A DNA stretch of 64,000 nt from Melioribacter roseus. GTDB lineage: Bacteria; Bacteroidota; Ignavibacteria; Ignavibacteriales; Melioribacteraceae. The notes under the pieces were generated by a model. It was not told the origin of the DNA, did no database searches, and saw only the letters and a program-made list of their open reading frames with translations. Numbering within the stretch: position 1 is the stretch's first letter; every line of letters starts with the position of its first letter. Below, piece after piece: positions 2,048 through 18,364 of this stretch. Where the stretch lies: the NCBI GenBank assembly GCA_020724265.1, contig DYHH01000008.1:1-64000 (forward strand), written 5' to 3'. Position numbers and translations under genes: made by a program.

Positions 2048-2700
2048 TGCCGAAATTTTCCACTTTCATTTTTGATGTTGACGGAACTTTAGCACACACA
2101 AACAAATTAATTTTTGCGAGTTTCAGGCACGTTGCAAAAAAATATTTAAATAAAGAAGTATCGGATGAAGAAATTATATCCTTATTCGGACCGACGGAAG
2201 ATGTGATTTTAAAAGAATGGATGAATGATAATTACGCAACCGCACGCGAGGATTATTATAATTTTTATTCGAACCAACACAATATTTTAGCGAATACTTT
2301 TCAAGGAATGGATGGAATTCTTAACTCTATAAAATCAAGTAATAAGAATCTTGCCATCTTTACAGGAAAAGGAAGAGAAAGCACCCGCATCACATTAGAG
2401 AAGATTGGATATGATAATTATTTCGATTTAATAATTTCGGGTGACGATGTAAAAAATCATAAACCCGCACCGGATGGAATATTAAAAATACTTGATCACT
2501 ATAAACTTAACGATGATGAAGTATTGATGATCGGCGACAGTCAGCATGATGTTGAAGCTTCACAAAGTGCAAATGTAAAAATCGCTTCCGTTATTTGGGA
2601 TAGTTATGCGAAAGAGGAAGTTATAAAAATGAATCCCGATTATGTCTTTCATGATATAACCGATTTCAAAATATTTATCGAGGACTCGCTCAAAAATTGA
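2047..2700 (+). CDS. HAD-superfamily hydrolase, phosphoglycolate-phosphatase-like
   Basis: A 217-residue cytosolic haloacid-dehalogenase phosphatase. Motif I is FDVDGT (nucleophile Asp10, acid/base Asp12), motif II the Thr in IFTGKG near 105, motif III the Lys in NHKPAP near 138, motif IV MIGDSQHDVEAS near 161. The alpha-helical cap between motifs I and II (about residues 18-85) is of the C1 class found in phosphoglycolate phosphatase, PpaX and beta-phosphoglucomutase. The sequence alone does not fix the substrate. The start ATG shares its A with the stop of the propeller gene, so translation is probably coupled. The 3' end overlaps the convergent gene by 11 bases, with no obvious terminator between them. 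Confidence 0.85.
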   Translation: MPKFSTFIFDVDGTLAHTNKLIFASFRHVAKKYLNKEVSDEEIISLFGPTEDVILKEWMNDNYATAREDYYNFYSNQHNILANTFQGMDGILNSIKSSNKNLAIFTGKGRESTRITLEKIGYDNYFDLIISGDDVKNHKPAPDGILKILDHYKLNDDEVLMIGDSQHDVEASQSANVKIASVIWDSYAKEEVIKMNPDYVFHDITDFKIFIEDSLKN

Positions 2701-4033
2701 GCGGATATATAAAAGATACTCTCGGTTCCAATCTTTTCTGAGGTTCGTAATCAATAATTTTTTTATCCGCATCACGAACCGGTGTGAAAGTCCAATGATA
2801 GACTAAAGATAAAATCAAATACGGAACAGGTCTATAACCAAACTCTGCAAATAAATAAGAACGGTCATCAAGTTTAAATAAATCTTTCTCATCTTGAATA
2901 TTAACTTTATCGTAACCTGCTCTAAAAACATAAGGCATACTTTCGGGCATAACATTAGTTGATAAATGAAGCATACCGGATTTAGGGTCTTTATCCAATC
3001 TTTGATAACTGCCGAGAATATCGAGAGTTCCGAGAACCGAAACAAGTAATTCGCCGTACCATCCGTTTCCCGCAGGACCGGCATTTTTCAATGCTTGTAC
3101 TTTACTTGTGAACATACCGGTTCCTCTATCAAGCTGGAATCTTTCAAGTTCATAAAACGAATTAAAATAAGAAGGTAAATATTCGTCACCGTTTATTCTT
3201 CTTTCAAATCTTGTTCTCAGGTCAACAATTCCCAATCCTTTTAAATTGAAGATAAAGCCGGTAGCAGCACCGCTTCCGAATTTTAACATTTTATTGAAAT
3301 CAAAATACAAGTCGAGATTGACCATTGCCGTTTTTAGAATCGGCAGACCTAAATCTATACCGACAACTGTTACGGCACCTTCATCTTGATCAGCTGTAAA
3401 TTTATTTTCAATTGCATCATAACTTCCCGTAAGCACGCCGGACTTGTTGTGAAGATCGGTTACAATACTTGCACCAAGTTCAAGATTTCCGATTATAGGG
3501 ATTGCTCGCAATTCAGTAAATTGCAGCGGGCGCGTATAACCCCGCAATCCCAATACACCGGCTTCTCCAAATGTTGAATAAACCGATTCGATTCCGAATG
3601 TATTGAAATCAATATCGAGTTCAATACCAATCTTTCTTGTGTCATAACTTGGACTATTATTGTAAAGATACATTATACTGCCATGCCCAAGAGTTGCATA
3701 ATCCAATGCACCGAGTCTTGCATACAACGGATCGCCTTTTAGTCCGTATCGAACATAACGAATTATACTTAAGTAATCGGAAAACTCGTTGAAGTTTTCG
3801 GTTCTAATTTTCCCATCTGCTCCAAACTCAAGTTTAAGATCAATTCCGATACCTACTTTTGAAAAAGCAAATTCCGGTCTAAGATGAAACCCGTAATATG
3901 GTTGTCCGTCAATCCATGTAATACCCAACCCGCCGTTAAGCATCCCTTGATTGTCACGCAGTGAATAGAGTTGTGCAAAGGAATTTGAACTGAATAACAA
4001 TGCTAAGATTAAAATGATAAGTTTAGACTTCAT
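2690..4033 (-). CDS. Putative outer-membrane beta-barrel protein, family not recognised
   Basis: A 447-residue protein with a signal peptide (KLIILILALLFSSNSFAQ) followed by alternating hydrophobic and polar strands rich in Gly, Tyr and Phe, ending in Phe (SFIYPLNF). A C-terminal aromatic residue and a periodicity of about ten residues are the usual marks of an outer-membrane barrel. No enzyme motif was seen. It follows the large PorU-like gene on the same strand after 81 bases, so it may be part of that transcription unit and act at the surface with it. It converges with the HAD gene, overlapping by 11 bases. Function is unknown. Confidence 0.6.
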   Translation of the reverse strand: MKSKLIILILALLFSSNSFAQLYSLRDNQGMLNGGLGITWIDGQPYYGFHLRPEFAFSKVGIGIDLKLEFGADGKIRTENFNEFSDYLSIIRYVRYGLKGDPLYARLGALDYATLGHGSIMYLYNNSPSYDTRKIGIELDIDFNTFGIESVYSTFGEAGVLGLRGYTRPLQFTELRAIPIIGNLELGASIVTDLHNKSGVLTGSYDAIENKFTADQDEGAVTVVGIDLGLPILKTAMVNLDLYFDFNKMLKFGSGAATGFIFNLKGLGIVDLRTRFERRINGDEYLPSYFNSFYELERFQLDRGTGMFTSKVQALKNAGPAGNGWYGELLVSVLGTLDILGSYQRLDKDPKSGMLHLSTNVMPESMPYVFRAGYDKVNIQDEKDLFKLDDRSYLFAEFGYRPVPYLILSLVYHWTFTPVRDADKKIIDYEPQKRLEPRVSFIYPLNF

Positions 4034-4114: not shown

Positions 4115-7100
4115 CTATCTGACAATCGCAAGTTTGTTAGTAACTGTTGTTGTTTCGTTATCGTCGTAAGAAATTATTTTATAGAGATAAACTCCGTTTG
4201 CAATAAGATCACCGTCTTCGTCTCTACCGTTCCAGTAAATTCTATTCAAATCATAATTCAGATCTTCGCTGTTAAGTTTGATCTCGCGGATAAGTCTGCC
4301 AGCTATTGTAAATATTTTTATTTTTAACTCGTTCGGAACTTTTGTCAATTTAAAAGTAAAATAGGTTTCATTCATAAAAGGATTCGGATAATTATAGGGA
4401 TAAAGAATTTTATTTTCATTGGAGACCTTGAAAAAACGTACATACTCAGCGGCATCGCTGTTAGCCGGACGAATATTTTCACCGCTTACCGAAAGTGTGT
4501 AATCCCCGTTATCTAATTGTGGTTTATATAAGAAGACTATTCTATTGTTTTGAAATTCGTATGTTGTATTTAATTGTGAAAAACTAATTCTTTTTTGGTT
4601 TAGCCTGATATCGAACGAATTAGTATCGCTTAGTTCAAATGTGCCGGAATAATCTAAAAATATTTCAATATTTGGGTTAGCTGAAACATAGTCTCCATCA
4701 TATATTTCATAACCATCAAAGTTTGCAGAAACAACCACTGATGAAATTGATGTAACAGTATCTTTAATAACTACAAAAGGCAATTCGAATGAATTGTTGT
4801 CTTTATATAATTCTATGTTGCTGTTATCGCTATCGAGTTCTATCACAAATTTATAATTACCGGGTTCATATTCGGTCGAAATAACTTTATTACAATTTAA
4901 TCCTAATGCCGATTCGGGATTTATAAAAAGTAGAGTTGAATCAAGAACAGTTTCAAGGTATGTATTGCTTTTAAACAGATCAACCTTAGTTCTAACATTC
5001 AGTGCTCTTCCCTCACCAACATTACTTGCTTTAAAATTTACGGCAATTGATTCACCTTGCATAACGGTATCACGAACAATCGATGCTGTCTGATAGTTAA
5101 TCGCAAGCTCTGCGGTGTTATGATGACTAACTCCAATTTGTGATATAGATGGTGAATCACCATTTTCATTCTGAGTAAACTTGAATCTGAATTTAGCATA
5201 AGGGTAAGACTTCGGATTAATAAAACTAATTGGAATTGTACTCGAGTTAAGTACAAACGTATTTAGTGTATCAACTTCTTCATTCTTTTTAATGCCGATA
5301 GGAGTAACACTCAACTCCGCCCCATTAGGAATATGATAATCAACAAATAGAGTATCCCAACTTGAAACCGGACCGAGTTTGGTGGTGGTTAAGTAACCCG
5401 TCGAATTTGGAACAATATATTTTTTTTCGAGATACACAGAACCATCATAAACACCCTTAACATCTTCTAGAATATCGGGATCCCCGGCTGAAGCACCTTT
5501 TCGTCCGATAATTGCCCATGAACCGCGGAAAACCAATTGGTCAATTTTAGTACTGCCTAATGTTTTGATAGCTGTCCGCAATTCCGTAATTAATCTATGC
5601 TGACCGTCATCAGCAACGCCCATTACTACAATTTTTCCTAATTGTATATTGTTAATAAGTGCAGCCAAAGCTTCGGCATTTGGTCGGTTATCAAATAATT
5701 GAAACCAAGCCGAAGTATCAACCTTCATTGTTATGGGATCGAAAACAACAATCCCCATACCGGCAAAGAATGAGTTATCGAGTTGATTGATTCCGTCAAC
5801 CGAAATTACACATGTGGCACCGGCATTCCACCCTGCGGAAAGTACGGAAACATTTAAAGTATCGATCGATAAACTCAGTTCTCCATTATTATAACCAACA
5901 CCTATACTCGATTGACTACTAAAGGAATAATCATCATCAATTTTGAAATCATAGTTGTCATAACCTGAAAAAGATTTTAGAGCAGAAAAATCAAATTCAG
6001 ATTTATCAATTTTATATCGCAACCAATATCTATTATTTGATAAACTTAATGTTGGGCTTGTTGTTATTAGTTCGGTAGATGAAAAATTTAATTCTTGTGG
6101 ATTAGAAAAATCTTCCGATTCTGAGACTTGCATCAAAATATCAAAATCATTTTCCTCATATCTAATTGGGTTTAGAACTGCAAGATTATTTTGTTTGCCA
6201 TTTATTTGCGTATATGGTAAAAGATCACGTAACGAGAATGAAAACACATTAAATGATTCTGAGTATAAATTATCAGTTTCAGATAGCTCCTCAATCTCAT
6301 TTTTCGAATCAAGGATAACCTCTAATCTATGCTGCCCTGAAAGTTCTTTTGTTTTTATCCAAACTTTTAAAGTGTCTTTATAACCGGGTAATATGTAACG
6401 ATTGGATTTAGATACCAACAATTCATTTTCGTAATAATGATTGAACTGAATTTCAAATTCTCTAAAAGGAGCTAAACCTAAATTCTTAATTACAACTCCG
6501 ATCTCAACCGAATCGGAAATATCATTCATATCAGAATGTGTAAATAAAAACGGATTTTCTTCAAATGTTAGGTTTGGTAAACCCGGGAATCTCAATCTAA
6601 CCACCGGATCACCTAAGATTATATTTGATAGAGCAAATACTTTGAAGACTTGAGAATTCCCGAAAATCTGGTACAACTTTGATTTAGCGTAAATGTGAGC
6701 ATTGCCAACTTCTTTTAACGAATCTATTTTAAAGGATTCATAAAAATATTTCGGTACCGTAACGGCGGTGGATAAAAAACCAAGCGATGAATTCCCGATG
6801 TAATTTAATGCTTGTCCATCCGGATCAAATAAAAATCTCTCACCGAAACAAATTATATCCGGTTCGCCGTATTTATTAGTCGAACACCCGAAGTCACTAA
6901 TAACCGGATTTCTGTTAACGTTATTTTTTAATTGTGAAACCGTGTTTATGCTGTTATCCCAAGTAGCCGTTCCGCTATGGCCTACATAAGAAATAAACAA
7001 ACCTCCGTCATTAATAGCTTGATTTATTTCTTGTGGTGTAAACGGGCCGAAATCCGATTGAGGGTTAGTCGTCTTATAGAGGTGATCATAATTACCCGAA

Positions 7101-9454
7101 ATAGGTCGAGGCTCTATAATCTTTGTAACAACCGAATCATTCGCAGCTTTTAATTGTTTCAATTCATTTGGATTACTACCAACGCCTCCGGAAAATAATA
7201 AGAACCTTTTATTCCACTCATCAAATTCTGCAGATGCATTGTTTTTTATTTTATCTAAATAATATTGCAGATCATTATTTGAGAGAATCGGTATTCTACC
7301 AACTTTAAGCTGAGGGATATATGGAGCATTGAGATCCCATATTGCATACCAATTATCACTAATAGGGTTACCAAACGCCGGTATATAATTAGTACTGAGT
7401 TTTACACCAACATTATTGTAAACATAATCCTTATAATCATAGTTGGTATCACCAAACAAAGTTAAATAAGATGGTTTTGGAGAACTCCAATTATCATAAG
7501 CAAACTTGACAAACTCCTTTATTGATTCCGGAGTTGGATAACCAAAACCAAATTCATCAAAAATATCCTCGACTAATATTTTTTTTGACTTGATAGAATA
7601 TAATTGTTCAATCTCCGATAAATAATTTGATACAGAAGACGAAAATTCATTTACCATTAAGCCAATATAATCTGCTTGAGAATTGTTAGCTCTCAGATTT
7701 GTGAATTTCCCATTAAAGACCATTTTCGGTTTGAGAAACACTGCATTTGAGAATATAGCATATTCATCATTCGATGAAACAGTGTCAATAAAAGTTAATT
7801 CGCCAGGATTATATGAATAGTTAATTATCTTTTTTGAATTGCCCTTGGTTTTATAAATAGCATAATTAATATTATCTGCATTGGTTATCTTCAACACTAC
7901 GATTTGATTATTATAACCGTCAGGAACAGTTAGAATTAGTGAACCATTGATAAATTTATTGTACCGTGGATATTCGATTTCATACCAATCGTATGCTAAA
8001 TAGTTTGGGACTGTACCATTGGGATAATTTTGTACATTAACTGTATTATTACCGGTGTTTAAAATAGAAGCATCAACGATTCCGGTCATAATTGTTTGTT
8101 TGAAACGGTCAATAGATTGCGAATCAATTTTTGTTGAATTAAAATTCAATCTAACTTGATGAGCATTACTGGAAATATTTGATCCTCCACTGATGAGTTT
8201 TAAATAAAACTTTGCGTCAACGTTTGGAAAAATATCTTGAAGATTTACTGTGAAGTTTCGACTCGTCAGTATCCAATTCCAATACCAAGTTTTATTTTTA
8301 TTCCAATCTGATGTTTGGTTAAGCAGTTCATTGTTATTGAGATTTTGATACATTGTGTTTTCTTCAAAATGTAAAATTGCAGTATGATAGTTTAATTCAT
8401 CATAATCACCCGGTACATTTGAATTATCGAGTTTATATCTTACTCCGTGTGAACTGCCCCAAGTGAGAAAGTAATAAGTTGTATCGGTATAAATATTCAA
8501 GAAAGTGTTATACGGCTGGTTATCCGAGTTTATAGTGTGATAATCATTTTTAGAATAGTTCTTTGTACCGTAAAATTCAATGTAATCATCTTCATCAAAC
8601 ACACCGTCTTCTTCTCCGCTTACAAAGATTATTTGTTCAACACCACTTTCAAATAATTGAAAAGTTTTCGGCTCAAGCGAATTTACTGGAGTTCCTATAT
8701 TTTCTAAATCGGTTTTTGATATTCTATATATTCCATCTTGTGCGACTGCAATTTTAATATAATCGTTATTGTAGTTAATCCATGAATCTGAGTTAATAAG
8801 CTCAAGCTCTTTGCGATTACTTCTGAACTGCTCTGCAATATTGCTATTGTATACAATTTCTTTTAATGAATTATCAAATTGTGATTTAATTTGAATTGGT
8901 GAATGATCTTGAAAATTGTAGGAACCTTCAAATTCTAATTCTATCTCAACGTTTTCATAAATAATGATTGAATTAGTCGAAGGATCAAATTGATGAGAGT
9001 TGATTCTGACTTCAACGCAATAGAAATCTCTAAACCAAAATTTTTGTCCCAACTCGACAATGGGTTTAGAATTATTTTTAAATAATTGAGTATTCGTTTC
9101 AGCATTTTCGTAAACCAATGTTGAGTCATTTAATTTGATCGCTTTCGGATTAATCGCAGGAATTGTATTCTCTAAAACTTTTTCCTTTTTGCTCAGTATT
9201 TTTAATGCGGGATCGGAATTTGGTGGAATAGCAAAAATTAAATTTCTGCTGGGTAATTTATATTCTCCGGGTTTTGAGGGATTAGTAAAATCAATAAAGT
9301 CAATTTGTCTATAAACGTTTGATGAGTCAATTACATAATCATAATCCGGAGTTGAGATTGTAAATTGAAAGGAGTTGCCACTCACCTTAAACTGCGCAAG
9401 AACTGTAATACCTAAAATGAAAAATGGAATAATTAATTTATTAATAAGCAACAT
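4115..9454 (-). CDS. PorU-like gingipain-family (C25) cysteine peptidase with ILEI/PANDER-like, CARDB-like and T9SS/FlgD-like domains
   Basis: A 1779-residue secreted protein. After a signal peptide, residues about 20-600 resemble the N-terminal part of PorU (DYIKIAVAQDGIYRISKTDL, DEDDYIEFYG, TYYFLTWGSSHG). Residues about 640-980 are the C25 caspase-like fold: LTLFGDTNYDYKDY, then the catalytic His in SYVGHSGTATWD (about 823) and the catalytic Cys in SDFGCSTNKYGEPD (about 856). Both catalytic residues are present. Two CARDB-like beta domains follow (about 1000-1090 and 1415-1530). Between them, about 1200-1330, a segment resembles the ILEI/PANDER domain of FAM3 proteins (GMGIVVFDP, KIVVMGVADDGQ, LGSTKIDQLVFRGSWAIIG). 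The C-terminus (YPYNYPNPF to end) is a FlgD-like T9SS type A module. In Porphyromonas PorU is the T9SS sortase; here the assignment as sortase rather than another C25 peptidase is likely but not certain. The gene follows the glycan cluster by only 6 bases. Confidence 0.78.
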   Translation of the reverse strand: MLLINKLIIPFFILGITVLAQFKVSGNSFQFTISTPDYDYVIDSSNVYRQIDFIDFTNPSKPGEYKLPSRNLIFAIPPNSDPALKILSKKEKVLENTIPAINPKAIKLNDSTLVYENAETNTQLFKNNSKPIVELGQKFWFRDFYCVEVRINSHQFDPSTNSIIIYENVEIELEFEGSYNFQDHSPIQIKSQFDNSLKEIVYNSNIAEQFRSNRKELELINSDSWINYNNDYIKIAVAQDGIYRISKTDLENIGTPVNSLEPKTFQLFESGVEQIIFVSGEEDGVFDEDDYIEFYGTKNYSKNDYHTINSDNQPYNTFLNIYTDTTYYFLTWGSSHGVRYKLDNSNVPGDYDELNYHTAILHFEENTMYQNLNNNELLNQTSDWNKNKTWYWNWILTSRNFTVNLQDIFPNVDAKFYLKLISGGSNISSNAHQVRLNFNSTKIDSQSIDRFKQTIMTGIVDASILNTGNNTVNVQNYPNGTVPNYLAYDWYEIEYPRYNKFINGSLILTVPDGYNNQIVVLKITNADNINYAIYKTKGNSKKIINYSYNPGELTFIDTVSSNDEYAIFSNAVFLKPKMVFNGKFTNLRANNSQADYIGLMVNEFSSSVSNYLSEIEQLYSIKSKKILVEDIFDEFGFGYPTPESIKEFVKFAYDNWSSPKPSYLTLFGDTNYDYKDYVYNNVGVKLSTNYIPAFGNPISDNWYAIWDLNAPYIPQLKVGRIPILSNNDLQYYLDKIKNNASAEFDEWNKRFLLFSGGVGSNPNELKQLKAANDSVVTKIIEPRPISGNYDHLYKTTNPQSDFGPFTPQEINQAINDGGLFISYVGHSGTATWDNSINTVSQLKNNVNRNPVISDFGCSTNKYGEPDIICFGERFLFDPDGQALNYIGNSSLGFLSTAVTVPKYFYESFKIDSLKEVGNAHIYAKSKLYQIFGNSQVFKVFALSNIILGDPVVRLRFPGLPNLTFEENPFLFTHSDMNDISDSVEIGVVIKNLGLAPFREFEIQFNHYYENELLVSKSNRYILPGYKDTLKVWIKTKELSGQHRLEVILDSKNEIEELSETDNLYSESFNVFSFSLRDLLPYTQINGKQNNLAVLNPIRYEENDFDILMQVSESEDFSNPQELNFSSTELITTSPTLSLSNNRYWLRYKIDKSEFDFSALKSFSGYDNYDFKIDDDYSFSSQSSIGVGYNNGELSLSIDTLNVSVLSAGWNAGATCVISVDGINQLDNSFFAGMGIVVFDPITMKVDTSAWFQLFDNRPNAEALAALINNIQLGKIVVMGVADDGQHRLITELRTAIKTLGSTKIDQLVFRGSWAIIGRKGASAGDPDILEDVKGVYDGSVYLEKKYIVPNSTGYLTTTKLGPVSSWDTLFVDYHIPNGAELSVTPIGIKKNEEVDTLNTFVLNSSTIPISFINPKSYPYAKFRFKFTQNENGDSPSISQIGVSHHNTAELAINYQTASIVRDTVMQGESIAVNFKASNVGEGRALNVRTKVDLFKSNTYLETVLDSTLLFINPESALGLNCNKVISTEYEPGNYKFVIELDSDNSNIELYKDNNSFELPFVVIKDTVTSISSVVVSANFDGYEIYDGDYVSANPNIEIFLDYSGTFELSDTNSFDIRLNQKRISFSQLNTTYEFQNNRIVFLYKPQLDNGDYTLSVSGENIRPANSDAAEYVRFFKVSNENKILYPYNYPNPFMNETYFTFKLTKVPNELKIKIFTIAGRLIREIKLNSEDLNYDLNRIYWNGRDEDGDLIANGVYLYKIISYDDNETTTVTNKLAIVR

Positions 9455-9460
9455 GAATGA

Positions 9461-10186
9461 TTACTTTTTGTATTTTTCTTTGAGTACCCTAAATATAAAT
9501 AAAGGAATACCGATAAGGTAGCGTTTCCAATATTGTTTTGGATTGTGAATTAATCTTACAAACCACTCAAGTCCAATTTTTTGGATGAATTTAGGGCCTC
9601 TTGGTCTATAATTTGAGATTACTTTTAAACCTCCACCGATTGCAATAATTCTAGTATTCGGCAAATTACCATTCCATTGATTGATCCATCGTTCTTGTTT
9701 TTTTGCACCAAGACCTATGAACAATACATCAGGTTCACTCTTGGATATTTTTTTAACTATTTCAATATCTTGAATATCTATATAGCCATCAATTGATCCC
9801 ACAATCACTATTCCAGGAAAGTCTTTTAATATTTTATCTAAAGCTTGATCCAATACACTTTTTGTATCACCAAAAATAAAAAGTTTCATGCCTTTACGAT
9901 TCATTTCAGTCAATAATTTGAAATAAAGATCAGAGCCTGTAATCTTGGGGTTATGAATTTTTTCATCACTCTTAATGTCAAGTGCAAGTTTAACGCCTAT
10001 ACCATCGGGATGAACAATATCAAAATTATTTAAAAGATTAGTGTATTCTGAATCCACGTAAGCTAAATTCATATAGTACTGATTTACGCACGCAAAGCTT
10101 ACACTCTTTTGAGCAAAAAATTCATGAATAAATTCCTCATAGCTACCGACAGCAATAAATACTTCGAACAATTTAATTTTTTTCAT
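9461..10186 (-). CDS. WecG/TagA/CpsF-family glycosyltransferase
   Basis: A 241-residue cytosolic or membrane-associated transferase of the GT26 family, which moves N-acetyl-mannosamine-type sugars from UDP donors onto lipid-linked GlcNAc. Visible family marks are NFDIVHPDGIGVKLAL (the conserved Asp region, residues about 55-70), TGSDLYFKLL, LFIFGDTKSV, PDVLFIGLGAKKQERWI, the IGGGL turn near 180, and a C-terminal tail RGPKFIQKIGLEWFVRLIHNPKQYWKRY that in TagA contacts the membrane and completes the site. The first codon overlaps the previous gene (ATGA), and the PorU-like gene starts 6 bases after its stop. It is the last glycan gene of the cluster. The exact sugar cannot be told from sequence. 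Confidence 0.88.
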   Translation of the reverse strand: MKKIKLFEVFIAVGSYEEFIHEFFAQKSVSFACVNQYYMNLAYVDSEYTNLLNNFDIVHPDGIGVKLALDIKSDEKIHNPKITGSDLYFKLLTEMNRKGMKLFIFGDTKSVLDQALDKILKDFPGIVIVGSIDGYIDIQDIEIVKKISKSEPDVLFIGLGAKKQERWINQWNGNLPNTRIIAIGGGLKVISNYRPRGPKFIQKIGLEWFVRLIHNPKQYWKRYLIGIPLFIFRVLKEKYKK

Positions 10187-11037
10187 CTAAGCAGATAAGA
10201 ATATTTATTCAGAAATTTATTTAACGCAGTTTTCCAATTCAATTCAGTAATCAATTTATTTCTTGAATTTTCTGTGGATAAGATCTCATACTTTGGTCGA
10301 TTAGCAGTTAATTGAAAGTCGGATAGCTTTTTGGGAAGGACTTCAATACTATTATTGAGATCATAGTACTCAACAATATATTTGATAATATCAAATCGAG
10401 ATAATTCTGATTCAGTACAATAATTATAAGTACCATATTCAAGGTCATTTTTAAAAATGACATCCAAATCCATTGTAAACTCATCGGCAAAAGTGAGTGA
10501 TCCAAAAACATCATTAACTCCAAACATTTTTTTTTCTTTACTCAAAAGCTGTCTAAACACGTTACCAATGAATTTGTTGTCAATCTGTGGATCCCCAATT
10601 AACCATCCAAATCTAAAAATATAATATTTATCAAGATTTTGAGTTATATATTGTTCTGATAAAAATTTTGTAAAAGCATAAAAATTTGCTGGTTCAGGCG
10701 GATCATCTTTAGAGTACTTTTTCCTCACTTTACCGTTAAATATGCTGGCTGAACTAATAAACACTAAAGCTACATTTGAAAAGTTTTTGATTTCATCTAC
10801 AATATTTTTTGTAAAGACATAGTTCGAATTAATTGCTAGAAGCTTATTTTTTTCACACAAATCCACATTAGTTTCCGCAGCGAAGTGAAGAATAAATACC
10901 TTCTCAGCTGAATGAACATTTTCTTTAATTACCCTATGTATTACCTCCCGAGAATCATTTTTAATCTCTAGACAATTATATTTCTCTTTTATTGATGAAG
11001 AGAGGGTTCCTTTTCGACCAGTCAACAAAATTTTCAT
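10183..11037 (-). CDS. RmlD-like NAD(P)-dependent sugar-nucleotide reductase (extended SDR)
   Basis: A 284-residue extended short-chain dehydrogenase. The Rossmann motif TGRKGTLSSSI sits at about residues 6-16, the NAA-type turn appears as FAAETNVDLCE, the catalytic Ser region is FISSASIF (about 92-99), and the YxxxK pair is in FYAFTKFLSE (Tyr about 120, Lys about 124). The closest pattern is dTDP-4-dehydrorhamnose reductase (RmlD), which makes dTDP-rhamnose. The other rml genes are not in the window, so the substrate may be a different 4-keto sugar. It overlaps both neighbours by four bases (ATGA), a sign of tight coupling in the glycan operon. Confidence 0.75.
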   Translation of the reverse strand: MKILLTGRKGTLSSSIKEKYNCLEIKNDSREVIHRVIKENVHSAEKVFILHFAAETNVDLCEKNKLLAINSNYVFTKNIVDEIKNFSNVALVFISSASIFNGKVRKKYSKDDPPEPANFYAFTKFLSEQYITQNLDKYYIFRFGWLIGDPQIDNKFIGNVFRQLLSKEKKMFGVNDVFGSLTFADEFTMDLDVIFKNDLEYGTYNYCTESELSRFDIIKYIVEYYDLNNSIEVLPKKLSDFQLTANRPKYEILSTENSRNKLITELNWKTALNKFLNKYSYLLR

Positions 11038-11981
11038 ATTTTAATTTTTTCCCCGATGAGATTTAGTCCATTTCGAAATTCTTCTTGTGAAATATCTGAA
11101 AAAGAATTTCTTTTGAAATTGATACTCTTATTTGAGTTTACAAGAACTGCCTCAGGCTTGGTATTAGAGAATATTCCGACAAATTCCGTATTATAAGCAT
11201 CAGCAATGTGTAGGGGGAATGAATCAATTGCTACGAAAAAACTTGTCGTTAAATGCTTTACTAAGTCTTCTAAATTTAAGTCTGATAAATATGATACGTT
11301 ATTGTTTTCTAAAACCGTCATTAAATAATTATTATCAAATGTGGTACCCAATATATATATTTGGTCTATACCCCTTTCAAGAAAAAAGTTTATTAACGTA
11401 TTTAATTGAGAAATAGTAAGGGATTTATCCTCATATTTTGATTTTGAATGAATAGTTACACAGCAAGGTTTTATTGCTTGTTCAACTTTCGGTATAGGTT
11501 TATACTTTTCTACCTCAAAATCGATAATAAAATATTGTAGAACATTTTTGATAAGATCTAAGAAATTATTTTTATTGTACCATTGACGTCCAACACTTTT
11601 TCCCGAATTAATAGTAATTTGAGGATACAATACTTTATCATCCCATCTATTCACCATAGAATAATTATAATATCCTCCTTTGTTAGATGATCTACACACT
11701 TTGAGAAAAAGTGAATTAATCCTACCGGGGAAAAATGAAAATGCTAAATCATAACGACGAAAAAGAAGTTTTGTCAGTAAAATCAAGATAATACTTGAAA
11801 TAGATTTCCGGACATAATTGAATTCAGAGCTACTTAATTGGTCAAAATTCAATTTCTCCGCACTGCTTGGGAAAATAAATGTAAAATGCACATTTTTATA
11901 TTTCTTTTTCAATGGCTTAACTGCTGACATTGATAGATAAGCATCGCCGATAGCATTTGTAGATATAATTAGAATATTCAT
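11034..11981 (-). CDS. Glycosyltransferase family 9 (heptosyltransferase-like)
   Basis: A 315-residue protein of the GT9 fold. The N-terminus MNILIISTNAIGDAYLSMSAVKPLKKKY is the typical GDA/LS..AV..LK start of LPS heptosyltransferases. In the C-terminal half, VTIHSKSKYEDKSL and the later FVAIDSFPLHIADAYN (equivalent of the D-S-G/P-x-x-H-x-A motif that binds the nucleotide-sugar) are clear. Members add heptose or related sugars to the LPS core or O-chain from ADP or GDP donors. It sits in the middle of the minus-strand glycan operon, its stop overlapping the RmlD-like start by four bases. Confidence 0.78.
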   Translation of the reverse strand: MNILIISTNAIGDAYLSMSAVKPLKKKYKNVHFTFIFPSSAEKLNFDQLSSSEFNYVRKSISSIILILLTKLLFRRYDLAFSFFPGRINSLFLKVCRSSNKGGYYNYSMVNRWDDKVLYPQITINSGKSVGRQWYNKNNFLDLIKNVLQYFIIDFEVEKYKPIPKVEQAIKPCCVTIHSKSKYEDKSLTISQLNTLINFFLERGIDQIYILGTTFDNNYLMTVLENNNVSYLSDLNLEDLVKHLTTSFFVAIDSFPLHIADAYNTEFVGIFSNTKPEAVLVNSNKSINFKRNSFSDISQEEFRNGLNLIGEKIKI

Positions 11982-12034
11982 TTCTCAGCAAAGTCGATTA
12001 CAAAGTAATAATTCGAGTATTCCCAGAACTATAT

Positions 12035-13099
12035 TTACTTTAAGTAAATTTTTTCTAAACTTTTTATGTAATTACTAATCGAATATTTTTTTTTCATAAA
12101 CTCTTTTATTTCACTTGCATGTTTTTCTTTTATATAATCAATATTATCATAAATATTTTGGATTGTACATAATAATTGTTGTGGAGTATAATCGGTTAAA
12201 CACCAAACGAATGGATGCAATTTTCTATCTATTGATTTTTTTTGAAGGGTAATAATTGGTTTACCAAAAAAAATTGCTTCATATAAAGTTAAACCAAAGG
12301 ATTCAAATTTTGATAGGGAAATAAAAATATCGATTTTTTTGAAAAAATCTCTTCTCGAGGTATAATCATTTTTAAAATATACAATTTGATCAAGTTTATT
12401 TTCCAATATTGATTTCTCAATTTCATTTGCAAAATCACCAGGCCCAGATATTAGTATATTATAATTTAGTCCGTTTTGTTTTTCATAAATTGCAAAATCT
12501 ACTAATTGTTTTAAACCTTTGTAATGCACAATTCTTCCTAAATAGCCACAGTTATATTGAGTTCCCATATTACTATTTTGTGTGAAGTCTATTAATTTAT
12601 CAAAATCAATTGGATTATCTAGTCGAATATTTTTTTGGGGAGATGTTCTTTCATATTTATTTTGTAACTCATAAATAAATTTAGATACAGAAATTCTGAG
12701 TATTTTCTTGTAAATCTGTTTTGCTGTGAATTGCTTAATAATACTCACAAATTTGGGCTCTAATTTTAGTTCATAAATTCTGAGACGACATCCATGATTA
12801 TGAGAAATTAATTTAGTATTTGGAAAAAACATTAAATTAAATATATCTATTAATAATCCTCCCGAATGATTATGTAAGATATCATATCTTTCTAATCTTA
12901 CTAGTCTTATAAACCGAAAAAAATAATATACCTTAGTAAAAAGCCTGTTGTTAATTTTCATTTTTGAAATAAAATCCTTTTGAAAATAAACAACTTCAGA
13001 AGATAATTTATTTTTTAATTGTTCAGAAGATATTAACCTAGCAACTTCTTCAATTCCTCCATAATAGTTCCCAGAACATATATGCAATACCTTCTTCAT
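12035..13099 (-). CDS. Glycosyltransferase family 4 (GT-B fold)
   Basis: A 354-residue GT-B glycosyltransferase. The N-terminal domain begins MKKVLHICSGNYYGGIEEVARL with the gly-rich loop of GT4 enzymes. The C-terminal domain has GYLGRIVHYKGLKQLVDF (acceptor/donor hinge, about 185-200) and the E-x7-E type donor site SKFESFGLTLYEAIFFGKPII near 265-285. It is a retaining transferase expected to use a nucleotide-sugar at the inner membrane. The codon use is extremely A+T-rich (long runs of aaa, ttt, ata), more so than in flanking housekeeping genes. It lies 53 bases upstream of the GT9 gene and 21 bases downstream of another GT4 gene. Confidence 0.85.
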   Translation of the reverse strand: MKKVLHICSGNYYGGIEEVARLISSEQLKNKLSSEVVYFQKDFISKMKINNRLFTKVYYFFRFIRLVRLERYDILHNHSGGLLIDIFNLMFFPNTKLISHNHGCRLRIYELKLEPKFVSIIKQFTAKQIYKKILRISVSKFIYELQNKYERTSPQKNIRLDNPIDFDKLIDFTQNSNMGTQYNCGYLGRIVHYKGLKQLVDFAIYEKQNGLNYNILISGPGDFANEIEKSILENKLDQIVYFKNDYTSRRDFFKKIDIFISLSKFESFGLTLYEAIFFGKPIITLQKKSIDRKLHPFVWCLTDYTPQQLLCTIQNIYDNIDYIKEKHASEIKEFMKKKYSISNYIKSLEKIYLK

Positions 13100-13120
13100 T
13101 TTTTAAAGTGTTCTCCAATT

Positions 13121-14188
13121 CTACTGAACCGCATTAATGGTTTTTTCATATAAGGAAACTAATTCTGCTGACACCTTCTTTTGTTTATAGAATTCTTCAA
13201 CCTCATTTTTCAATTTTAAGATTTTTTTTCGATATAATGTATAATTTGTAACCGAATCTATAATTTTTTCAGATAAATCTTTGCTATTACCTTTTTCAAA
13301 AATAACAGCACATTCATCATTTAAAATATCCGAATGTCCAAAAAAGTTGGAACTAATTACTAAATTTTCAGAAAGAATTGCTTCAATTAAAATTGTTGGG
13401 AGGCCTTCATATTCTGCCTCTGATGGAAAAACAAGGATGTGAGTTGCCTCCAAATATTTTTGAAACTCTTCGATCACTCCTAAAAAATTGATACTAATAT
13501 TTGCTTTTTTCCCTATCTCAGCCAAAATACTTTCTAGACTTCCTGAACCAGCAACATAAAATTCCACGTTTGTGGGTAATTTATCTTTGATCAGGATAAT
13601 TGCATTAATATAAGTCTCAAATCCTTTTTCTTTTTCAATCCGCCCTGCGGAAATAACCCTTATAACATTATTGTCTTTTTCGATCTGTTTAGTTGATATA
13701 GGAAAACTATGTCTTATAAAATGTACCTGTTTATTCCTTAGTCGCTTCTTAAGAATTTCTTTAATGCTAATACTAAGGACAACAATATGCTCTGAACTAA
13801 ACTGATTGACCAATCCTTTTCTTTGTAATAACCCATGGTTTGTTTGAATAGTTACGACTTTAGTAAATAAGGAAACTTTGTAAGCAATGCTTGAACTGTA
13901 ATGATGATGGGAGTGAATAATTTGTATATCATTCCTTTTGACAAAACTGTAAACTTCTTTTATACCTTTTATATAACCAGTTATTGAACGAGTTTCATGT
14001 CTTAAGTTTTCATTTACAATAACTGGTACACCAAGCGCCTGAAATTTTTGAATTGCATTTCCTCCACCTGTCATAATAAAATATTCATTATTAGGATAGT
14101 TTTTCTGTAAACCATCAACCAAATGGTAAAGATGTTTACTAACCCCACATACTTGTAGTAATTCATTAGCTAAAAAAAGAATTTTCAT
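13121..14188 (-). CDS. Glycosyltransferase family 4 (GT-B fold)
   Basis: A 355-residue GT-B enzyme. MKILFLANELLQVCGVSKHLYHLVDGL is the N-terminal gly/Ser-rich loop; IIHSHHHYSSSIAY and QTNHGLL follow; the donor domain shows VISAGRIEKEKGFETYINAI (about 180-200) and FPSEAEYEGLPTILIEAILS (about 252-272), the usual E-x7-E region. It is paralogous in fold, not closely in sequence, to the GT4 gene that follows. It forms part of the seven-gene glycan cluster; a terminator was not seen on either side. The linkage formed and the sugar used are unknown. Confidence 0.85.
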   Translation of the reverse strand: MKILFLANELLQVCGVSKHLYHLVDGLQKNYPNNEYFIMTGGGNAIQKFQALGVPVIVNENLRHETRSITGYIKGIKEVYSFVKRNDIQIIHSHHHYSSSIAYKVSLFTKVVTIQTNHGLLQRKGLVNQFSSEHIVVLSISIKEILKKRLRNKQVHFIRHSFPISTKQIEKDNNVIRVISAGRIEKEKGFETYINAIILIKDKLPTNVEFYVAGSGSLESILAEIGKKANISINFLGVIEEFQKYLEATHILVFPSEAEYEGLPTILIEAILSENLVISSNFFGHSDILNDECAVIFEKGNSKDLSEKIIDSVTNYTLYRKKILKLKNEVEEFYKQKKVSAELVSLYEKTINAVQ

Positions 14189-14230
14189 CTATATTTTTAC
14201 TTTTCTATGTTGATAAAAAAATCAAAAAGT

Positions 14231-15085
14231 TTAATTTTCTCTTTGTAAGAAATATCTCTTAATTCTACGCAAAAAAGACTCAAGAAAAAGGTTTGAAAAA
14301 TGGATTCGTTTGACTATCACCCATCTTAAATAACCTTCATAAATCAATCCGTGTTTTTTTTTTATTCTTCTAGAACTTTTAATATGAGAGAGGATGCTGT
14401 ATCGAACACTGGCATAACTTTTATCAACAGATTTATTAGAATAGTTATGATCGTGTAGTAGAGTAATTTCTTCAATATACATAGCTTTTAACGGATTATT
14501 TTTGACCATTGCCCTTATAGCAAATTCAAAATCTTCAAAACCCACAAACATCTTATCATCAAATAACCCATTATCATGAAAAATACTTTTTTTAACAATT
14601 GCACCCCCACCTGGGAACCAATTTGTATATATTGAATCATGCACAAGATTATAAATCTTTTTCCCGTGAATTTCCAATCTCCTTTTCTGTTCAAATTGTT
14701 TGACTTGATTATCAAATATCATTGGGATAAAGATGCCAACGTGGGGATTATCAGAAATTTTAGACTGTATTATTTCGATCCAATTTCTTGTTTGAAGTAT
14801 AATATCATTATCCACAAAAAAAAGCCAATCAGTTTCAGCATGATCTATTAAAAAATTTCTTCCTTTAGCAACGCCCAAATTTTTTCCAACTTCATAGTAT
14901 TTGATCTGTTTATACTCAGAGATAAACTCTTTTAATAAACCCGCAGTATATTGTGATGAATTATTATTTAATACAGCAATTGTACAACTACTTGGAATAA
15001 TACTTTTTATACAAGAAATTGTAGCTTTTATCTTTTCGTAAAAAAGAATGCAAATAGTGATATTATTTTTCAGTTCATTTACCAA
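14231..15085 (-). CDS. Glycosyltransferase family 2 (GT-A fold)
   Basis: A 284-residue GT-A transferase. After a short N-terminus come ITICILFYEKIKATISCIKSI, AVLNNNSSQYT (about 37-47) and the family signature YEVGKNLGVAKGRNFLIDHAETDWLFFVDNDI split over about 65-97, in which the VDND is the metal- and nucleotide-binding DxD-like motif. The acceptor half has FPGGGAIVKKS and GFEDFEFAIRA, the ED(Y/F) catalytic region. It is an inverting transferase likely to act on the growing lipid-linked glycan. The gene is 42 bases upstream of the GT4 gene and 18 bases after the flippase gene, consistent with one operon. Confidence 0.85.
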   Translation of the reverse strand: MVNELKNNITICILFYEKIKATISCIKSIIPSSCTIAVLNNNSSQYTAGLLKEFISEYKQIKYYEVGKNLGVAKGRNFLIDHAETDWLFFVDNDIILQTRNWIEIIQSKISDNPHVGIFIPMIFDNQVKQFEQKRRLEIHGKKIYNLVHDSIYTNWFPGGGAIVKKSIFHDNGLFDDKMFVGFEDFEFAIRAMVKNNPLKAMYIEEITLLHDHNYSNKSVDKSYASVRYSILSHIKSSRRIKKKHGLIYEGYLRWVIVKRIHFSNLFLESFLRRIKRYFLQREN

Positions 15086-15103
15086 TTTTTCTTTATTATT
15101 TAA

Positions 15104-16309
15104 CTAATTTAAGCAAACAGTTCTTAGTTTAATTAAGAACATAAAAAAAATAAATACTTCGGTTAACAAAGTCGTAAACGCAGCACCATTATATGAAAAA
15201 TCGGGAATTAAAAGAAAATTTAGAATAATATTAGTAAGGAGTCCAAAAAAGCTAGCTAAAGCAAAAAACTGCTTATAATTATAGGATAATAATGAATTAC
15301 CTATAACGATATTTAAACTCTTCACTATAATACACATTGCGAACACATGTATTGCATCAACTGAAGAAGAATAATCATCAAGATAAAGTAAAGTTAAAAT
15401 ATCATTTGCACAGTTGAACAGTAACAATGCTATTATCAAACCGACTCCAAGTGATAAGAAATAGAACTGTGTAAATGATTTTAATGAGTAATAGTGTGAT
15501 ATACTATTTTTCACATTTATTGGAAAGAATATAGACATCAGGATTGCAAAAGGTATTTGGGCTATTAAAAATAATTTAGATGGAATGCTATATAAACCAA
15601 CAGCATAATCAGTTTTTATAAAACGCAACATAATTACATCTACACTCAGATAAATAGCAATTAGCCCAAGACTTATACCATATGGGAGAGAATTATAAAA
15701 TAATTTGAGTAATTTCCTTTTATTTATAAAAAACAAATTGGAAAATAGTAGTCCATTTTTCTTAAATAAAAAGAAAGAGGAGCCCATCATAGAAAAAAGT
15801 AAAGCAATCGGGATAAGAGCCGCTGAAGCAAGTCTAATAACAATAAAAGCAAAAATAAAATAACTTATTGATTCAATCACTCTTGAATATATTATATTTC
15901 TCACATCATGTTTAATATAAGAATACCATGTTGTATTTAAGGATAAAGGGAAAAGAGACAACGAGTAAAAAATTATAAGAAGATAACTTGATATCGATAA
16001 AAAAATAAATGAATGGATTATAATGTTTGTAAAAACAAGAGTGAAAGAAACTAAAAATTTCAGTTGGATATTGTAATAAACAACTTCAATCTTGCCCCTC
16101 TGAATTTGAGTTGTAGCAAATAAATCAAAACCAAAATTTGTAAATACAACAAGAATAGCCAATATCTGTTGCCCATATAAAATTTCACCAACTATATTAA
16201 CGGCGAAGCTCTTAAGAATAAAATAGAATATAATATAGTTTGTAAATCTATAAAATATTTCAATGGCAGATAACTTAAACAGGCTTTTGAAATAATCTAG
16301 GAATTTCAC
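15104..16309 (-). CDS. Wzx-like oligosaccharide flippase (MOP superfamily)
   Basis: A 401-residue integral membrane protein with about a dozen hydrophobic segments and short basic loops, fitting the polysaccharide transporter (Wzx/RfbX) branch of the MOP exporters. Typical features are the N-terminal IVGEILYGQQILAILVVFTNFGFDLFAT helix pair and the internal NSLPYGISLGLIAIYLSVDVIMLRFIKTDYAVGLYSIPSKLF stretch (part quoted in two motifs), which matches the conserved centre of these flippases. It would move the lipid-linked glycan to the periplasmic face. It is the first gene of the glycan cluster as transcribed. No Wzy polymerase or ligase was found beside it. Confidence 0.8.
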   Translation of the reverse strand: MKFLDYFKSLFKLSAIEIFYRFTNYIIFYFILKSFAVNIVGEILYGQQILAILVVFTNFGFDLFATTQIQRGKIEVVYYNIQLKFLVSFTLVFTNIIIHSFIFLSISSYLLIIFYSLSLFPLSLNTTWYSYIKHDVRNIIYSRVIESISYFIFAFIVIRLASAALIPIALLFSMMGSSFFLFKKNGLLFSNLFFINKRKLLKLFYNSLPYGISLGLIAIYLSVDVIMLRFIKTDYAVGLYSIPSKLFLIAQIPFAILMSIFFPINVKNSISHYYSLKSFTQFYFLSLGVGLIIALLLFNCANDILTLLYLDDYSSSVDAIHVFAMCIIVKSLNIVIGNSLLSYNYKQFFALASFFGLLTNIILNFLLIPDFSYNGAAFTTLLTEVFIFFMFLIKLRTVCLN

Positions 16310-16364
16310 TTAAATGATTGCCACAATATTCTAATTAAATAAACCTTTTGAGGGTATTTATTTT

Positions 16365-17573
16365 TCATTTCCTTACCAACCAAACTTCCGGGTTTTGATA
16401 ATTTCTTTCATTCCAGATTTCAAAATGTAAGATGTTGCCCTCTAAACTTTGGTTAACTTTGCCAAGTAATGTACCGCCTTCAACTTTGTTACCTTCAATT
16501 ACGCTTATTTCGGAAATGTGTCCATACACCGTACGATAATTATTTTTATGTGTAATGATCACAACACTGCCATAACCCGGAATCCACTCAATTGCTGATA
16601 TAATCCCTTCGGCAACTGCAAATACTTCTTCCCCTTTTTCAGTTTGGATGTCCACACCGTAGTTTAAAGTAACTGTATTTAATTTAATATTTCTGTTTTC
16701 ACCGAAGTTGCGGATTATTTTACCGGACTTAACAGGCCAGTTTAATACACCTTGAAGATTAGAAAAATTTTCAAAATTATCATAGTTATAATCAAATTTG
16801 ACTTCTTCATTTTTTAGTCGTGCAAGACGCATTTCTTCCTGTCTACGTCTTTCGTCTTCAATTAATTTTGCAATCAAATTTTTTATTTGAATCTCGGCTT
16901 TTCTTTTTTCGTCAATTTCCTGAAGCAAAGCGTTTTGATCTTCTTGTAATGAAGTGATTATTAATTCACTTACAAATTTTTTATCTACTAAAGATTCCTG
17001 TTCTTTTTCTTTCTCATTTACTAAACGCTCTTTCTCAAGTTTTTCTTTCTCTCTTACATCTATTAATTTGACAAATCTATTTTTTTTCTCTTTTAATTGA
17101 TTAAGCAGATCTTGTTTTTCGCTTGTTATATAGTTTAGATATTTATAACGAATTACAGCTTGATTTATCGATTCGGCACTTAATAGAAATTTTAGGAAAG
17201 AACCTTTTCTGTGTTTGTAAAGCCAAACAAGATAATTCGAATAATCATGCCGTAATTTTTCAATTTCGGTTTCTAATTCCGAAATTTCAGAATTCAAACG
17301 AGTGATCTCCCGTTCTTTTTGCCTTTCTTCCTGTTTGAGTTTAGTGATGACTTTACTTATCAGTAAATTTTGCTGATTAATATTTTGAAGTGCCTGAAGA
17401 GATTTTTTTTCTTGATCCGATAAATCATTTAGCTTGGATTGCAATGAAGAGATTTCCGAACGAAGATTCATTAAAGCAACATTATGCTCTTCAATCTTAT
17501 TATTGCTTTGCGCATTTACGCTGAAGTAAACCGCGAATAAAATAATTATGAAATACTTGATTGTTTTTACCAT
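16365..17573 (-). CDS. EnvC-like murein hydrolase activator (M23 fold, degenerate site)
   Basis: A 402-residue periplasmic protein with a signal peptide (YFIIILFAVYFSVNAQS). Residues about 25-250 form a long coiled coil (many Glu/Lys/Leu heptads, DEKRKAEIQIKNLIAKLIEDERRRQEEM). Residues about 285-400 are a LytM/M23 domain (NYGVDIQTEKGEEVFAVAEG, YGHISEISV, ILHFEIW). Compared with active endopeptidases, the first zinc His (HxGxD) is replaced by Asn-Tyr-Gly-Val-Asp and the first His of HxH is Ile, so it should not cut peptidoglycan but, like EnvC, activate an amidase at the division site. It overlaps the DUF4292 gene by 7 bases, in a TPR-DUF4292-M23 order common in Bacteroidota. Confidence 0.85.
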   Translation of the reverse strand: MVKTIKYFIIILFAVYFSVNAQSNNKIEEHNVALMNLRSEISSLQSKLNDLSDQEKKSLQALQNINQQNLLISKVITKLKQEERQKEREITRLNSEISELETEIEKLRHDYSNYLVWLYKHRKGSFLKFLLSAESINQAVIRYKYLNYITSEKQDLLNQLKEKKNRFVKLIDVREKEKLEKERLVNEKEKEQESLVDKKFVSELIITSLQEDQNALLQEIDEKRKAEIQIKNLIAKLIEDERRRQEEMRLARLKNEEVKFDYNYDNFENFSNLQGVLNWPVKSGKIIRNFGENRNIKLNTVTLNYGVDIQTEKGEEVFAVAEGIISAIEWIPGYGSVVIITHKNNYRTVYGHISEISVIEGNKVEGGTLLGKVNQSLEGNILHFEIWNERNYQNPEVWLVRK

Positions 17574-18364
17574 TCAATTATTTCTGCATCTTCGGGAATT
17601 TTGAAACTCAAACTTCCGATATCTCTGTTAACTCTAATGCTTCTATAATCTATATCAATATTTTGATTCATCAACTTATAATTGATATTAATTTTATAAG
17701 GAAGCGGGACATCATCAAACATTTCAAAATCTTTGTAGGAACCCTCTAAAACTAAATTTCTCGGTTGCTCTATTATGCTGAATTTTGTAATGGCTAAGTC
17801 GTCTATTAATATTTCATATAAACTCTTTCTTCCGGTAATTTGTTCGGAATAGGATAAAAGATAAGAATCATTCCTGATCAATAATTCGTCGGGTTCACGT
17901 CTAAGTTTATCGGTTAAGTCAACAGCGCCGGCAAAAGCATCCATTAGTTCATCAAAAGTAAGGTCTACTTTAAAAATATTTTTAAGAGATAAATCTTTTG
18001 TTATGCCTTTGAATACCCTGTTATTTATAACATCGTAAAAAATAAAATCTCTTTTGGTTGCAACTGATTGTGCGAGATCAATTCCGAATGGTCCGTAAAA
18101 GGATATCTTCAATGAATCAGGTTTCTTTAACGATACTTGAAAACTTGCCTTTGCAGTCAACTGCGGACTGCTTAGATTAATTGTTCCGCTTCCGCTAAAA
18201 GTTTTTATTTTCCGTCTATTGGCTTCTAATTTTTTCATTAAGCGATCAGCCGGTAAAATACGTTCTTCATCAACCGGTTTTGACGGTACGCATGAAGAAA
18301 ATAAAATTGAGATTGAAATAAAAATCACTAAATGTATTACTGCATGAATAAAAGTTCTTTTCAC
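17567..18364 (-). CDS. DUF4292-family lipoprotein
   Basis: A 265-residue lipoprotein: the hydrophobic N-terminus ends in the lipobox FSSC at about residue 25. The rest (SGSGTINLSSPQLTAKASFQVSLKKPDSLKISFYGPFGIDLAQ in outline) resembles DUF4292, which has a LolB/LppX-like half-barrel for holding lipids or lipoproteins. It starts with GTG in a four-base GTGA overlap with the TPR gene and its own end overlaps the EnvC-like gene, so the three genes are translated together. A role in envelope or outer-membrane lipoprotein trafficking is inferred from fold and context. Confidence 0.75.
   Translation of the reverse strand: MKRTFIHAVIHLVIFISISILFSSCVPSKPVDEERILPADRLMKKLEANRRKIKTFSGSGTINLSSPQLTAKASFQVSLKKPDSLKISFYGPFGIDLAQSVATKRDFIFYDVINNRVFKGITKDLSLKNIFKVDLTFDELMDAFAGAVDLTDKLRREPDELLIRNDSYLLSYSEQITGRKSLYEILIDDLAITKFSIIEQPRNLVLEGSYKDFEMFDDVPLPYKININYKLMNQNIDIDYRSIRVNRDIGSLSFKIPEDAEIIEW

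Follow-up and report, generated by a model that had tools for sequence, protein, structure and literature searches.

A stretch of 64,000 nucleotides from Melioribacter roseus (assembly GCA_020724265.1, contig DYHH01000008.1, positions 1 to 64,000, forward strand), referred to here as the window, contains a gene for a large C25-family cysteine peptidase that follows directly on seven genes for glycan assembly. The peptidase is related to PorU, the sortase of the type IX secretion system (T9SS). All eight genes lie on the minus strand and score over the cut-offs of Pfam families; they are listed here in 5'→3' order on that strand.

15104..16309, minus strand: Wzx-type polysaccharide flippase, GTG start (PF01943 Polysacc_synt, 34.9 bits, cut-off 28.2)
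14231..15085, minus strand: GT2-family glycosyltransferase, TTG start (PF00535, 65 bits)
13121..14188, minus strand: GT4-family glycosyltransferase, over the Pfam cut-off (best NCBIfam match PglH-like, below cut-off)
12035..13099, minus strand: GT4-family glycosyltransferase (PF00534, 57 bits)
11034..11981, minus strand: GT9-family (heptosyltransferase-like) glycosyltransferase, a weak match (PF01075, 30.5 bits, cut-off 22)
10183..11037, minus strand: RmlD-type NDP-sugar reductase/epimerase (PF04321, 139 bits; TIGR01214, 117 bits, below its cut-off of 224)
9461..10186, minus strand: WecG/TagA/CpsF-family glycosyltransferase (PF03808, 156.7 bits; the genome's only PF03808 match)
4115..9454, minus strand: C25-peptidase gene, 1779 aa, next after the WecG-family gene

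The open reading frame (ORF) coordinates bear out an earlier sequence-only reading of the window, which described seven co-directional glycan genes ending at 9461 and a peptidase gene starting at 9454; bases 9455-9460 form the 6-base gap. That reading also saw no terminator separating the block from the peptidase gene, and a consensus scan of 9000-16600 agrees, with no terminator-like site on the minus strand in that interval. Promoter-like sites in the same interval are at chance level (55, against 48.7 +/- 7.2), and a terminator or separate promoter ahead of the C25 gene was rejected on both results. The transcript through the glycan block could extend further upstream than had been assumed, because the EnvC-like, LolB-like and TPR genes upstream of the flippase are co-directional and separated by small gaps or overlaps. 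A profile search of the whole genome returns a single PF03808 gene; because this gene is the immediate neighbour of the C25 gene, we regard the adjacency as more than chance.

The block holds both a flippase and several glycosyltransferases, as a Wzx-dependent assembly locus does. Pfam and NCBIfam scans of its seven genes give no match to a Wzy-type polymerase or a phosphoglycosyl transferase (Bac_transf); members of polymerase and initiating-enzyme families are found elsewhere in the genome, outside the block. Five glycosyltransferases with no recognised polymerase would fit the synthesis of a short oligosaccharide, with the polymerase families elsewhere in the genome as a caveat.

The C25 protein is composed of the following parts.

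N-terminus: hydrophobic and signal-peptide-like, judged by eye
residues 24-177: Propeptide_C25-like region (Pfam match over cut-off)
6593..7624, minus strand, residues 611-954: C25 cysteine peptidase domain (PF01364, 193-197 bits; His826/Cys857)
residues 981-1065: CARDB-like domain (Pfam match over cut-off)
5492..5761, minus strand, residues 1232-1321: FAM3/ILEI domain, of the POMGnT1-stem-like, carbohydrate-binding type (PF15711, 70.5-75.3 bits, cut-off 27)
4145..4390, minus strand: Ig-like T9SS type A C-terminal sorting domain, hereafter CTD (TIGR04183, 32.0 bits, cut-off 23)

The TIGR04183 match comes from the genome search and was not listed by the whole-protein scan; FlgD_ig reaches 21.7 bits, under its cut-off of 27. 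For the comparisons below, C25 proteins are divided into class A (the window type), class B (another C25 paralogue) and class C (canonical PorU). The putative catalytic pair His826/Cys857 is invariant in the 34 aligned class A proteins and is kept in all 77 C25 domains compared.

The sequence-only reading labelled this protein PorU-like and took it as a working assumption to be the genome's PorU. The label stands at superfamily level, with a shared C25 domain and a match of 270.9 bits to the PorU model NF033707, and fails at the level of orthology. The model's cut-off is 420, and the genome has a true PorU at G000:C18 (1326 aa, 1023.5 bits on the same model), its gene followed by those for PorV (263 bits, cut-off 250) and a T9SS-dependent M6-like protein; the two C25 proteins also fall in separate supported clades of the tree described below. 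Canonical PorU was rejected as the identity of the window protein on these three grounds, and there is next to no chance that the two are one and the same; judged by sequence, the genome's own PorU and the window protein are paralogues. The best model for the window protein is PorU2 (NF052324), at 394.3 bits again short of the cut-off (450). No PorV2 (NF052325) scores over cut-off in the genome, the best match reaching 191.9 bits against 325. Fifteen matches to the PorV2 model lie under the cut-off (G000:C35:48923-49906, for example), which suggests a family of PorV/PorQ-like shuttle proteins. The genome also encodes, close to a contig end, a 466-aa protein consisting of a C25 domain and a CTD (L074:47-1447, on G000:C8), a compact gingipain-like T9SS protein.

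Conservation of the gene order was examined in 58 genomes of the order, the present one included. Thirty-nine class A regions, the best 80 of 132 loci from a scan by C25 peptide patterns only, and the window itself gave 120 rows, which reduce to 99 distinct loci after removal of duplicates, 80 of them with upstream sequence; the numbers did not change when duplicates were removed a second time, at 97% identity. ORFs were called mechanically (ATG, GTG or TTG start, at least 80 aa, overlaps pruned), and glycosyltransferase, Wzx and WecG calls in the relatives rely on profiles iterated from the window genes, which miss distant families and may mix GT4 with GT9. Of the 80 loci, 68 have a WecG gene as the first or second gene upstream of C25 (54 on the same strand, 14 on the opposite one), and in 56 it is the first; in 76, at least one of the first two upstream genes belongs to some glycan family. 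Where at least 5 kb of upstream sequence is available (63 loci), the eight upstream ORFs include at least three glycosyltransferases in 58 loci and Wzx in 48. The pairing is thus kept in related genomes, and the refutation named by the sequence-only reading, a gene order peculiar to this genome, does not apply. Canonical porU served as a control: its 12 loci have 112 neighbours, none of them recognised as a glycan gene. Class B shows 14 among 81 neighbours of eight loci.

The content of the glycan block varies from genome to genome. A cluster with one tested member, a UDP-galactopyranose mutase, occurs in 43 locus rows, duplicates included, and some block proteins of ~450-550 aa in the relatives have no Pfam match; a divergent Wzy may be among these. 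At least three glycan genes are also found near the class B gene in three of its eight loci. At L081:3459-16248 (class B is also seen at L080 and L078), a class B paralogue of ~1905 aa that lacks ILEI comes after genes for a GT4 enzyme, a MurJ-like flippase and Wzy_C, with a GlmS-like gene next.

WecG and class A also occur together. WecG (PF03808) is present in 41 of the 58 genomes, all 41 of which have class A; among the matches listed, from which class A presence was read by eye for each genome, 12 of the 17 WecG-negative genomes have no class A and the other five have partial class A matches only, four of which start no more than 24 bases into a contig. The association gives a Fisher p of 7e-9, uncorrected for kinship. 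The two genes are no more than 5 kb apart in 39 of the 41 genomes, and 38 of the 41 have just one WecG gene. The proposal that the sortase-like gene and the glycan genes belong together emerges strengthened from this co-occurrence and from the conserved linkage.

Beyond the order, 296 genomes of the phylum were sampled from a larger group. The ILEI family is present in 77 of them, mostly in frames of ~1500-2400 aa, and regions were taken from 40 of the 77, one of which (L210) has no C25 ORF. A maximum-likelihood tree was built from 77 C25 domains, L218 and the small C25 protein of G000:C8 being left out. The 12 PorU (class C) and eight class B proteins form one supported group (100/98), and the class A proteins (19 rows, the window type) join 18 further proteins in a clade of 37 (95/88) that spans taxonomic classes. 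Under a fixed rule, a C25 gene counts as glycan-linked if the ORFs around it, up to five to each side, include at least two of glycan families; this makes 31 of the 37 proteins within this clade linked, versus 6 of the 40 outside it. The six unlinked members are three of family f19, L209 (one glycosyltransferase plus Wzy_C), L188 (without upstream sequence) and L065. The linkage label changes 10 times on the tree, versus 26 in shuffles. The C25-ILEI gene adjoins Wzx, a glycosyltransferase, WecG or Wzy_C in several further families of the class and also in f37, a family from outside it; in family f19 the gene lies beside a WbaP-type transferase and sugar-nucleotide genes. At L195:11200-19901 and L200:11823-19385, in other families of the class, a second C25-matching gene stands in tandem after the C25-ILEI gene where a WecG-type glycan cluster ends, the second match in L200 being weak (50 bits).

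At E values up to 0.01, the ILEI domain is found in 19 of 19 class A proteins and in none of the 12 PorU or eight class B proteins, and also in 38 of 38 others, which had been selected by ILEI. Among profile matches to the PDB, this part of the window protein matches FAM3C, FAM3B and the POMGnT1 stem. A structure model of residues 600-1345 (59 sequences, pLDDT 89.9, pTM 0.79) predicts the same fold, superposing on the POMGnT1 stem 5ggl_B with a TM score of 0.81 by target length, an rmsd of 2.4 and 23% identity, and membership of PF15711 is supported both by the score over cut-off and by the predicted fold. POMGnT1 contacts GlcNAc through Arg129, Asp179 and Arg207, and sugar binding is also stated for FAM3C (PMC9802357). 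Counting along the alignment, with PMC9802357 as guide, would place these contacts at window residues 1231, 1282 and 1310, which are Ala, Asp and Arg, and the full set of three is not kept. At the three positions, in the order R, D and R, the POMGnT1 residue is present in 8, 23 and 31 of the 34 class A proteins, in 14, 15 and 14 of the 18 glycan-linked clade domains from outside the order, in 3, 14 and 17 of the 20 tree-set domains from within the order, and in 4, 5 and 2 of the 24 domains of C25-ILEI proteins outside the clade. At two of the three positions, the sugar-contact residue is retained by most domains of the glycan-linked clade and missing from most of those outside it, a contrast between clades and not between independent events; it depends mainly on the D179 and R207 positions, as the R129 column is gapped in 17 of the 24 outside domains.

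In Porphyromonas gingivalis, PorU cuts off the CTD and joins the C-terminus of the cargo to anionic lipopolysaccharide (A-LPS) delivered by PorZ (PMC8545088); the bond is an amide to a sugar of the Wbp/Vim pathway (PMC7468200), and a pentasaccharide linker on O-polysaccharide is described in a 2026 paper (PMC13086638). With moderate confidence, we propose that the window carries a conserved glycan-sortase locus, in which the C25 protein would join T9SS cargo to the glycan made by its neighbours while its FAM3-type domain presents that glycan in cis. From the gene families, the seven-gene block would build and flip an undecaprenyl-linked oligosaccharide. The C25 protein would cross the inner membrane by Sec, leave by the T9SS through its own CTD, and act at the surface as a cysteine transpeptidase, with Cys857/His826 cutting the CTD off some or all T9SS cargo. 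The new C-terminus of the cargo would then be joined to the neighbour-made glycan as putative acceptor, by analogy through the same kind of bond as that made by P. gingivalis PorU. The FAM3/POMGnT1-stem-type domain would bind and present the glycan from within the same chain, taking the role that PorZ plays in trans for P. gingivalis PorU.

Several observations weigh against this proposal. The canonical PorU of the same genome could do all of the anchoring, and no VimA-type gene is found at cut-off (the related family TIGR03019 is weakly matched, with 47 bits versus 260; Wbp enzymes were not included in the search). An A-LPS of the P. gingivalis type, to which the sequence-only reading suggested an equivalent, is not seen in these data. 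The window has Ala at the R129-matching position, which is R in just 8 of the 34 class A proteins. A single shared transcript is not obligatory, given that 14 of the 80 loci have WecG on the opposite strand. Five of the 63 loci (L063, L065, L066, L153 and L103) have fewer than three upstream glycosyltransferases, L103 being without any recognised glycan gene, and in G044 and G051 (L065 and L066) class A and WecG are on different contigs. Many C25-ILEI proteins elsewhere in the phylum have no glycan linkage, six C25 proteins outside the clade are linked by the same rule, and in two tested cases, L212 and L218, the unlinked C25-ILEI gene follows a PorV2 gene instead.

The structure model bears on a different account, in which the C25-ILEI protein is a gingipain-like surface protease, itself T9SS cargo, whose FAM3-type domain sticks to the neighbour-made glycan with no joining of protein to sugar. 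In structure, the catalytic part is most similar to the catalytic domains of the gingipains RgpB and Kgp; pro-domains of gingipains also occur among the profile matches, and the protein has a CTD together with the catalytic His/Cys. PorU itself, however, carries a CTD. By sequence profile, moreover, the matches to solved structures include just one C25 catalytic domain, that of PorU (6za2). The PorU and PorU2 models score far above chance, and a plain protease would not explain why, in the order, the gene is almost always paired with WecG. We regard this account as unlikely, though the least so of the alternatives.

Comparison with known systems places the window protein near, but apart from, each of them. 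Like P. gingivalis PorU (NF033707; 6za2, the top profile match) it has the C25 His/Cys, a propeptide-like N-terminal region and a CTD; it differs in its sub-cut-off score, its extra CARDB-like and FAM3/ILEI domains, its glycan linkage in place of a position beside PorV, and the presence of a separate true PorU. PorU2 and PorV2 are already known as NCBIfam models (NF052324/NF052325). Of these and the other models, NF052324 gives the window protein its highest score, and a PorU2 member over cut-off, L219 (660 bits), also has ILEI, whereas the window protein remains below 450 and has a glycan block instead of a PorV2 over cut-off in the genome. In the PorZ/PorU/A-LPS system, as in the predicted arrangement, a C25 sortase is offered a surface glycan by a component that binds carbohydrate (PMC8545088). 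That component, PorZ, has two propellers and is a protein of its own; in the window protein a fold of the FAM3 sugar-binding type is fused in cis. Exosortase/PEP-CTERM systems with exopolysaccharide clusters likewise link the gene of a protein-sorting transpeptidase to glycan-assembly genes (PMC7468200), but exosortases are embedded in the inner membrane, and the window protein, as a C25 enzyme of the T9SS type, would be expected on the outside of the cell. With FAM3 and the POMGnT1 stem it shares the predicted fold and part of the sugar-contact residues; in those PDB matches the domain is an animal one, and in the window it lies within a bacterial sortase-like protein.

Reports on P. gingivalis and T. 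forsythia describe sugars that link T9SS cargo (PMC7468200, PMC13086638); there is also a paper on Prevotella intermedia (PMC11969387). Literature searches at listing level returned no report of such a sugar for the Ignavibacteria branch and none of a glycan-linked PorU paralogue; nothing was found that joins PorU2 with type IX secretion, PGN_1668 with WecG, or C25 with Melioribacter. The genes adjoining the sortase-like gene may make the anchoring sugar across many related bacteria. Ignavibacterium album and Melioribacter roseus are cultured members of the Ignavibacteria, and the gene order points to candidate anchor-glycan genes and a dedicated sortase that can be tested in such strains. If the proposal is correct, a sortase that contains its own sugar-presenting domain would represent a new way of anchoring proteins to the cell surface and would be useful for protein-glycan conjugation.

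More tentatively, at somewhat less than an even chance, these proteins may form a separate sortase class across several classes of Bacteroidota, a C25 transpeptidase with its own FAM3-type glycan-presenting domain that is inherited with the genes for its own glycan substrate. Genomes would then hold at least two C25 sortases for different anchors, namely PorU-PorV, the glycan-locus sortase and possibly class B, which in some genomes adjoins a flippase and a Wzy_C gene.

The genes on either side of the block and the C25 gene are as follows.

18361..20151, minus strand: TPR-repeat protein, conserved flank (synteny)
17567..18364, minus strand: LolB-like lipoprotein, conserved flank (NF053559, 87.5 bits, cut-off 50; synteny)
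16365..17573, minus strand: EnvC-like M23 peptidase, conserved flank upstream of the variable block (EnvC model, 67 bits, below its cut-off of 270)
2690..4033, minus strand: 447-aa outer-membrane beta-barrel, co-directional and downstream of C25 (alignment of 34; model pLDDT 82)
2047-2700, plus strand: HAD phosphatase gene, convergent conserved flank
239-2047, plus strand: BamB-like beta-propeller gene, convergent conserved flank

An EnvC relative is found within 11 ORFs upstream in 37 of the 58 loci with at least 8.5 kb of upstream sequence. Conserved flanks around a block of variable content are what would be seen if an ordinary O-antigen or exopolysaccharide block were exchanged between genomes while its flanks (EnvC at one end, BamB/HAD at the other) stayed fixed, the C25 gene being merely one of those flanks. 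Such positional hitch-hiking does not account well for the recurrence of the linkage in other families and classes whose fetched stretches contain no recognised EnvC, HAD or BamB flank (L187, L189-L196, L200, L207-L209), for genomes in which WecG and the C25 gene are missing together, or for the two sugar-site residues that track the linked clade, and we consider it distinctly improbable.

The 447-aa barrel is encoded within three ORFs downstream of C25 in 34 of 70 loci. It has no Pfam match, and its sole NCBIfam match is to ImpL63 (77.5 bits versus a cut-off of 1000). A close solved relative was rejected, as the structure matches are to generic barrels, in a list where absence excludes nothing. 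PorV or PorV2 was likewise rejected as its identity, with profile-comparison probabilities below 1% against the genome's PorV and eight proteins from upstream of unlinked C25 genes (two of the three scanned with NCBIfam matched PorV2), in a test that is insensitive, the same eight proteins also giving below 1% against PorV. The frequent position of the barrel gene after C25, and the alginate exporter AlgE among the many generic barrel matches, would suit a pair that serves polysaccharide export or display, for instance by processing a matrix or export protein, and not general anchoring. The barrel matches are unspecific, however (Foldseek TM ~0.3; VIA-align Z of 12-14 to many unlike barrels), and the barrel is not found within three ORFs downstream in 36 of the 70 loci, so that such a function seems very unlikely.

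The T9SS parts identified in the genome are SprA, PorU, PorV and 121 CTD matches; SprA and the CTD matches together mean that both the machine and its cargo exist in this genome, and the 121 matches would be possible substrates. In 16 of 75 loci, a protein with a CTD motif, mostly of ~220-260 aa, is encoded directly after C25 on the same strand (L118:5973-6653 and L100:5906-6613, for example) and is possibly a dedicated cargo; the window has no such gene. One of the 121 matches is a multihaem cytochrome encoded at 27828-29846 of the window on the plus strand, with an MtrC/MtrF-like match and a T9SS C-terminal sorting domain, which by its sequence is likely a surface electron-transfer protein exported by the T9SS.

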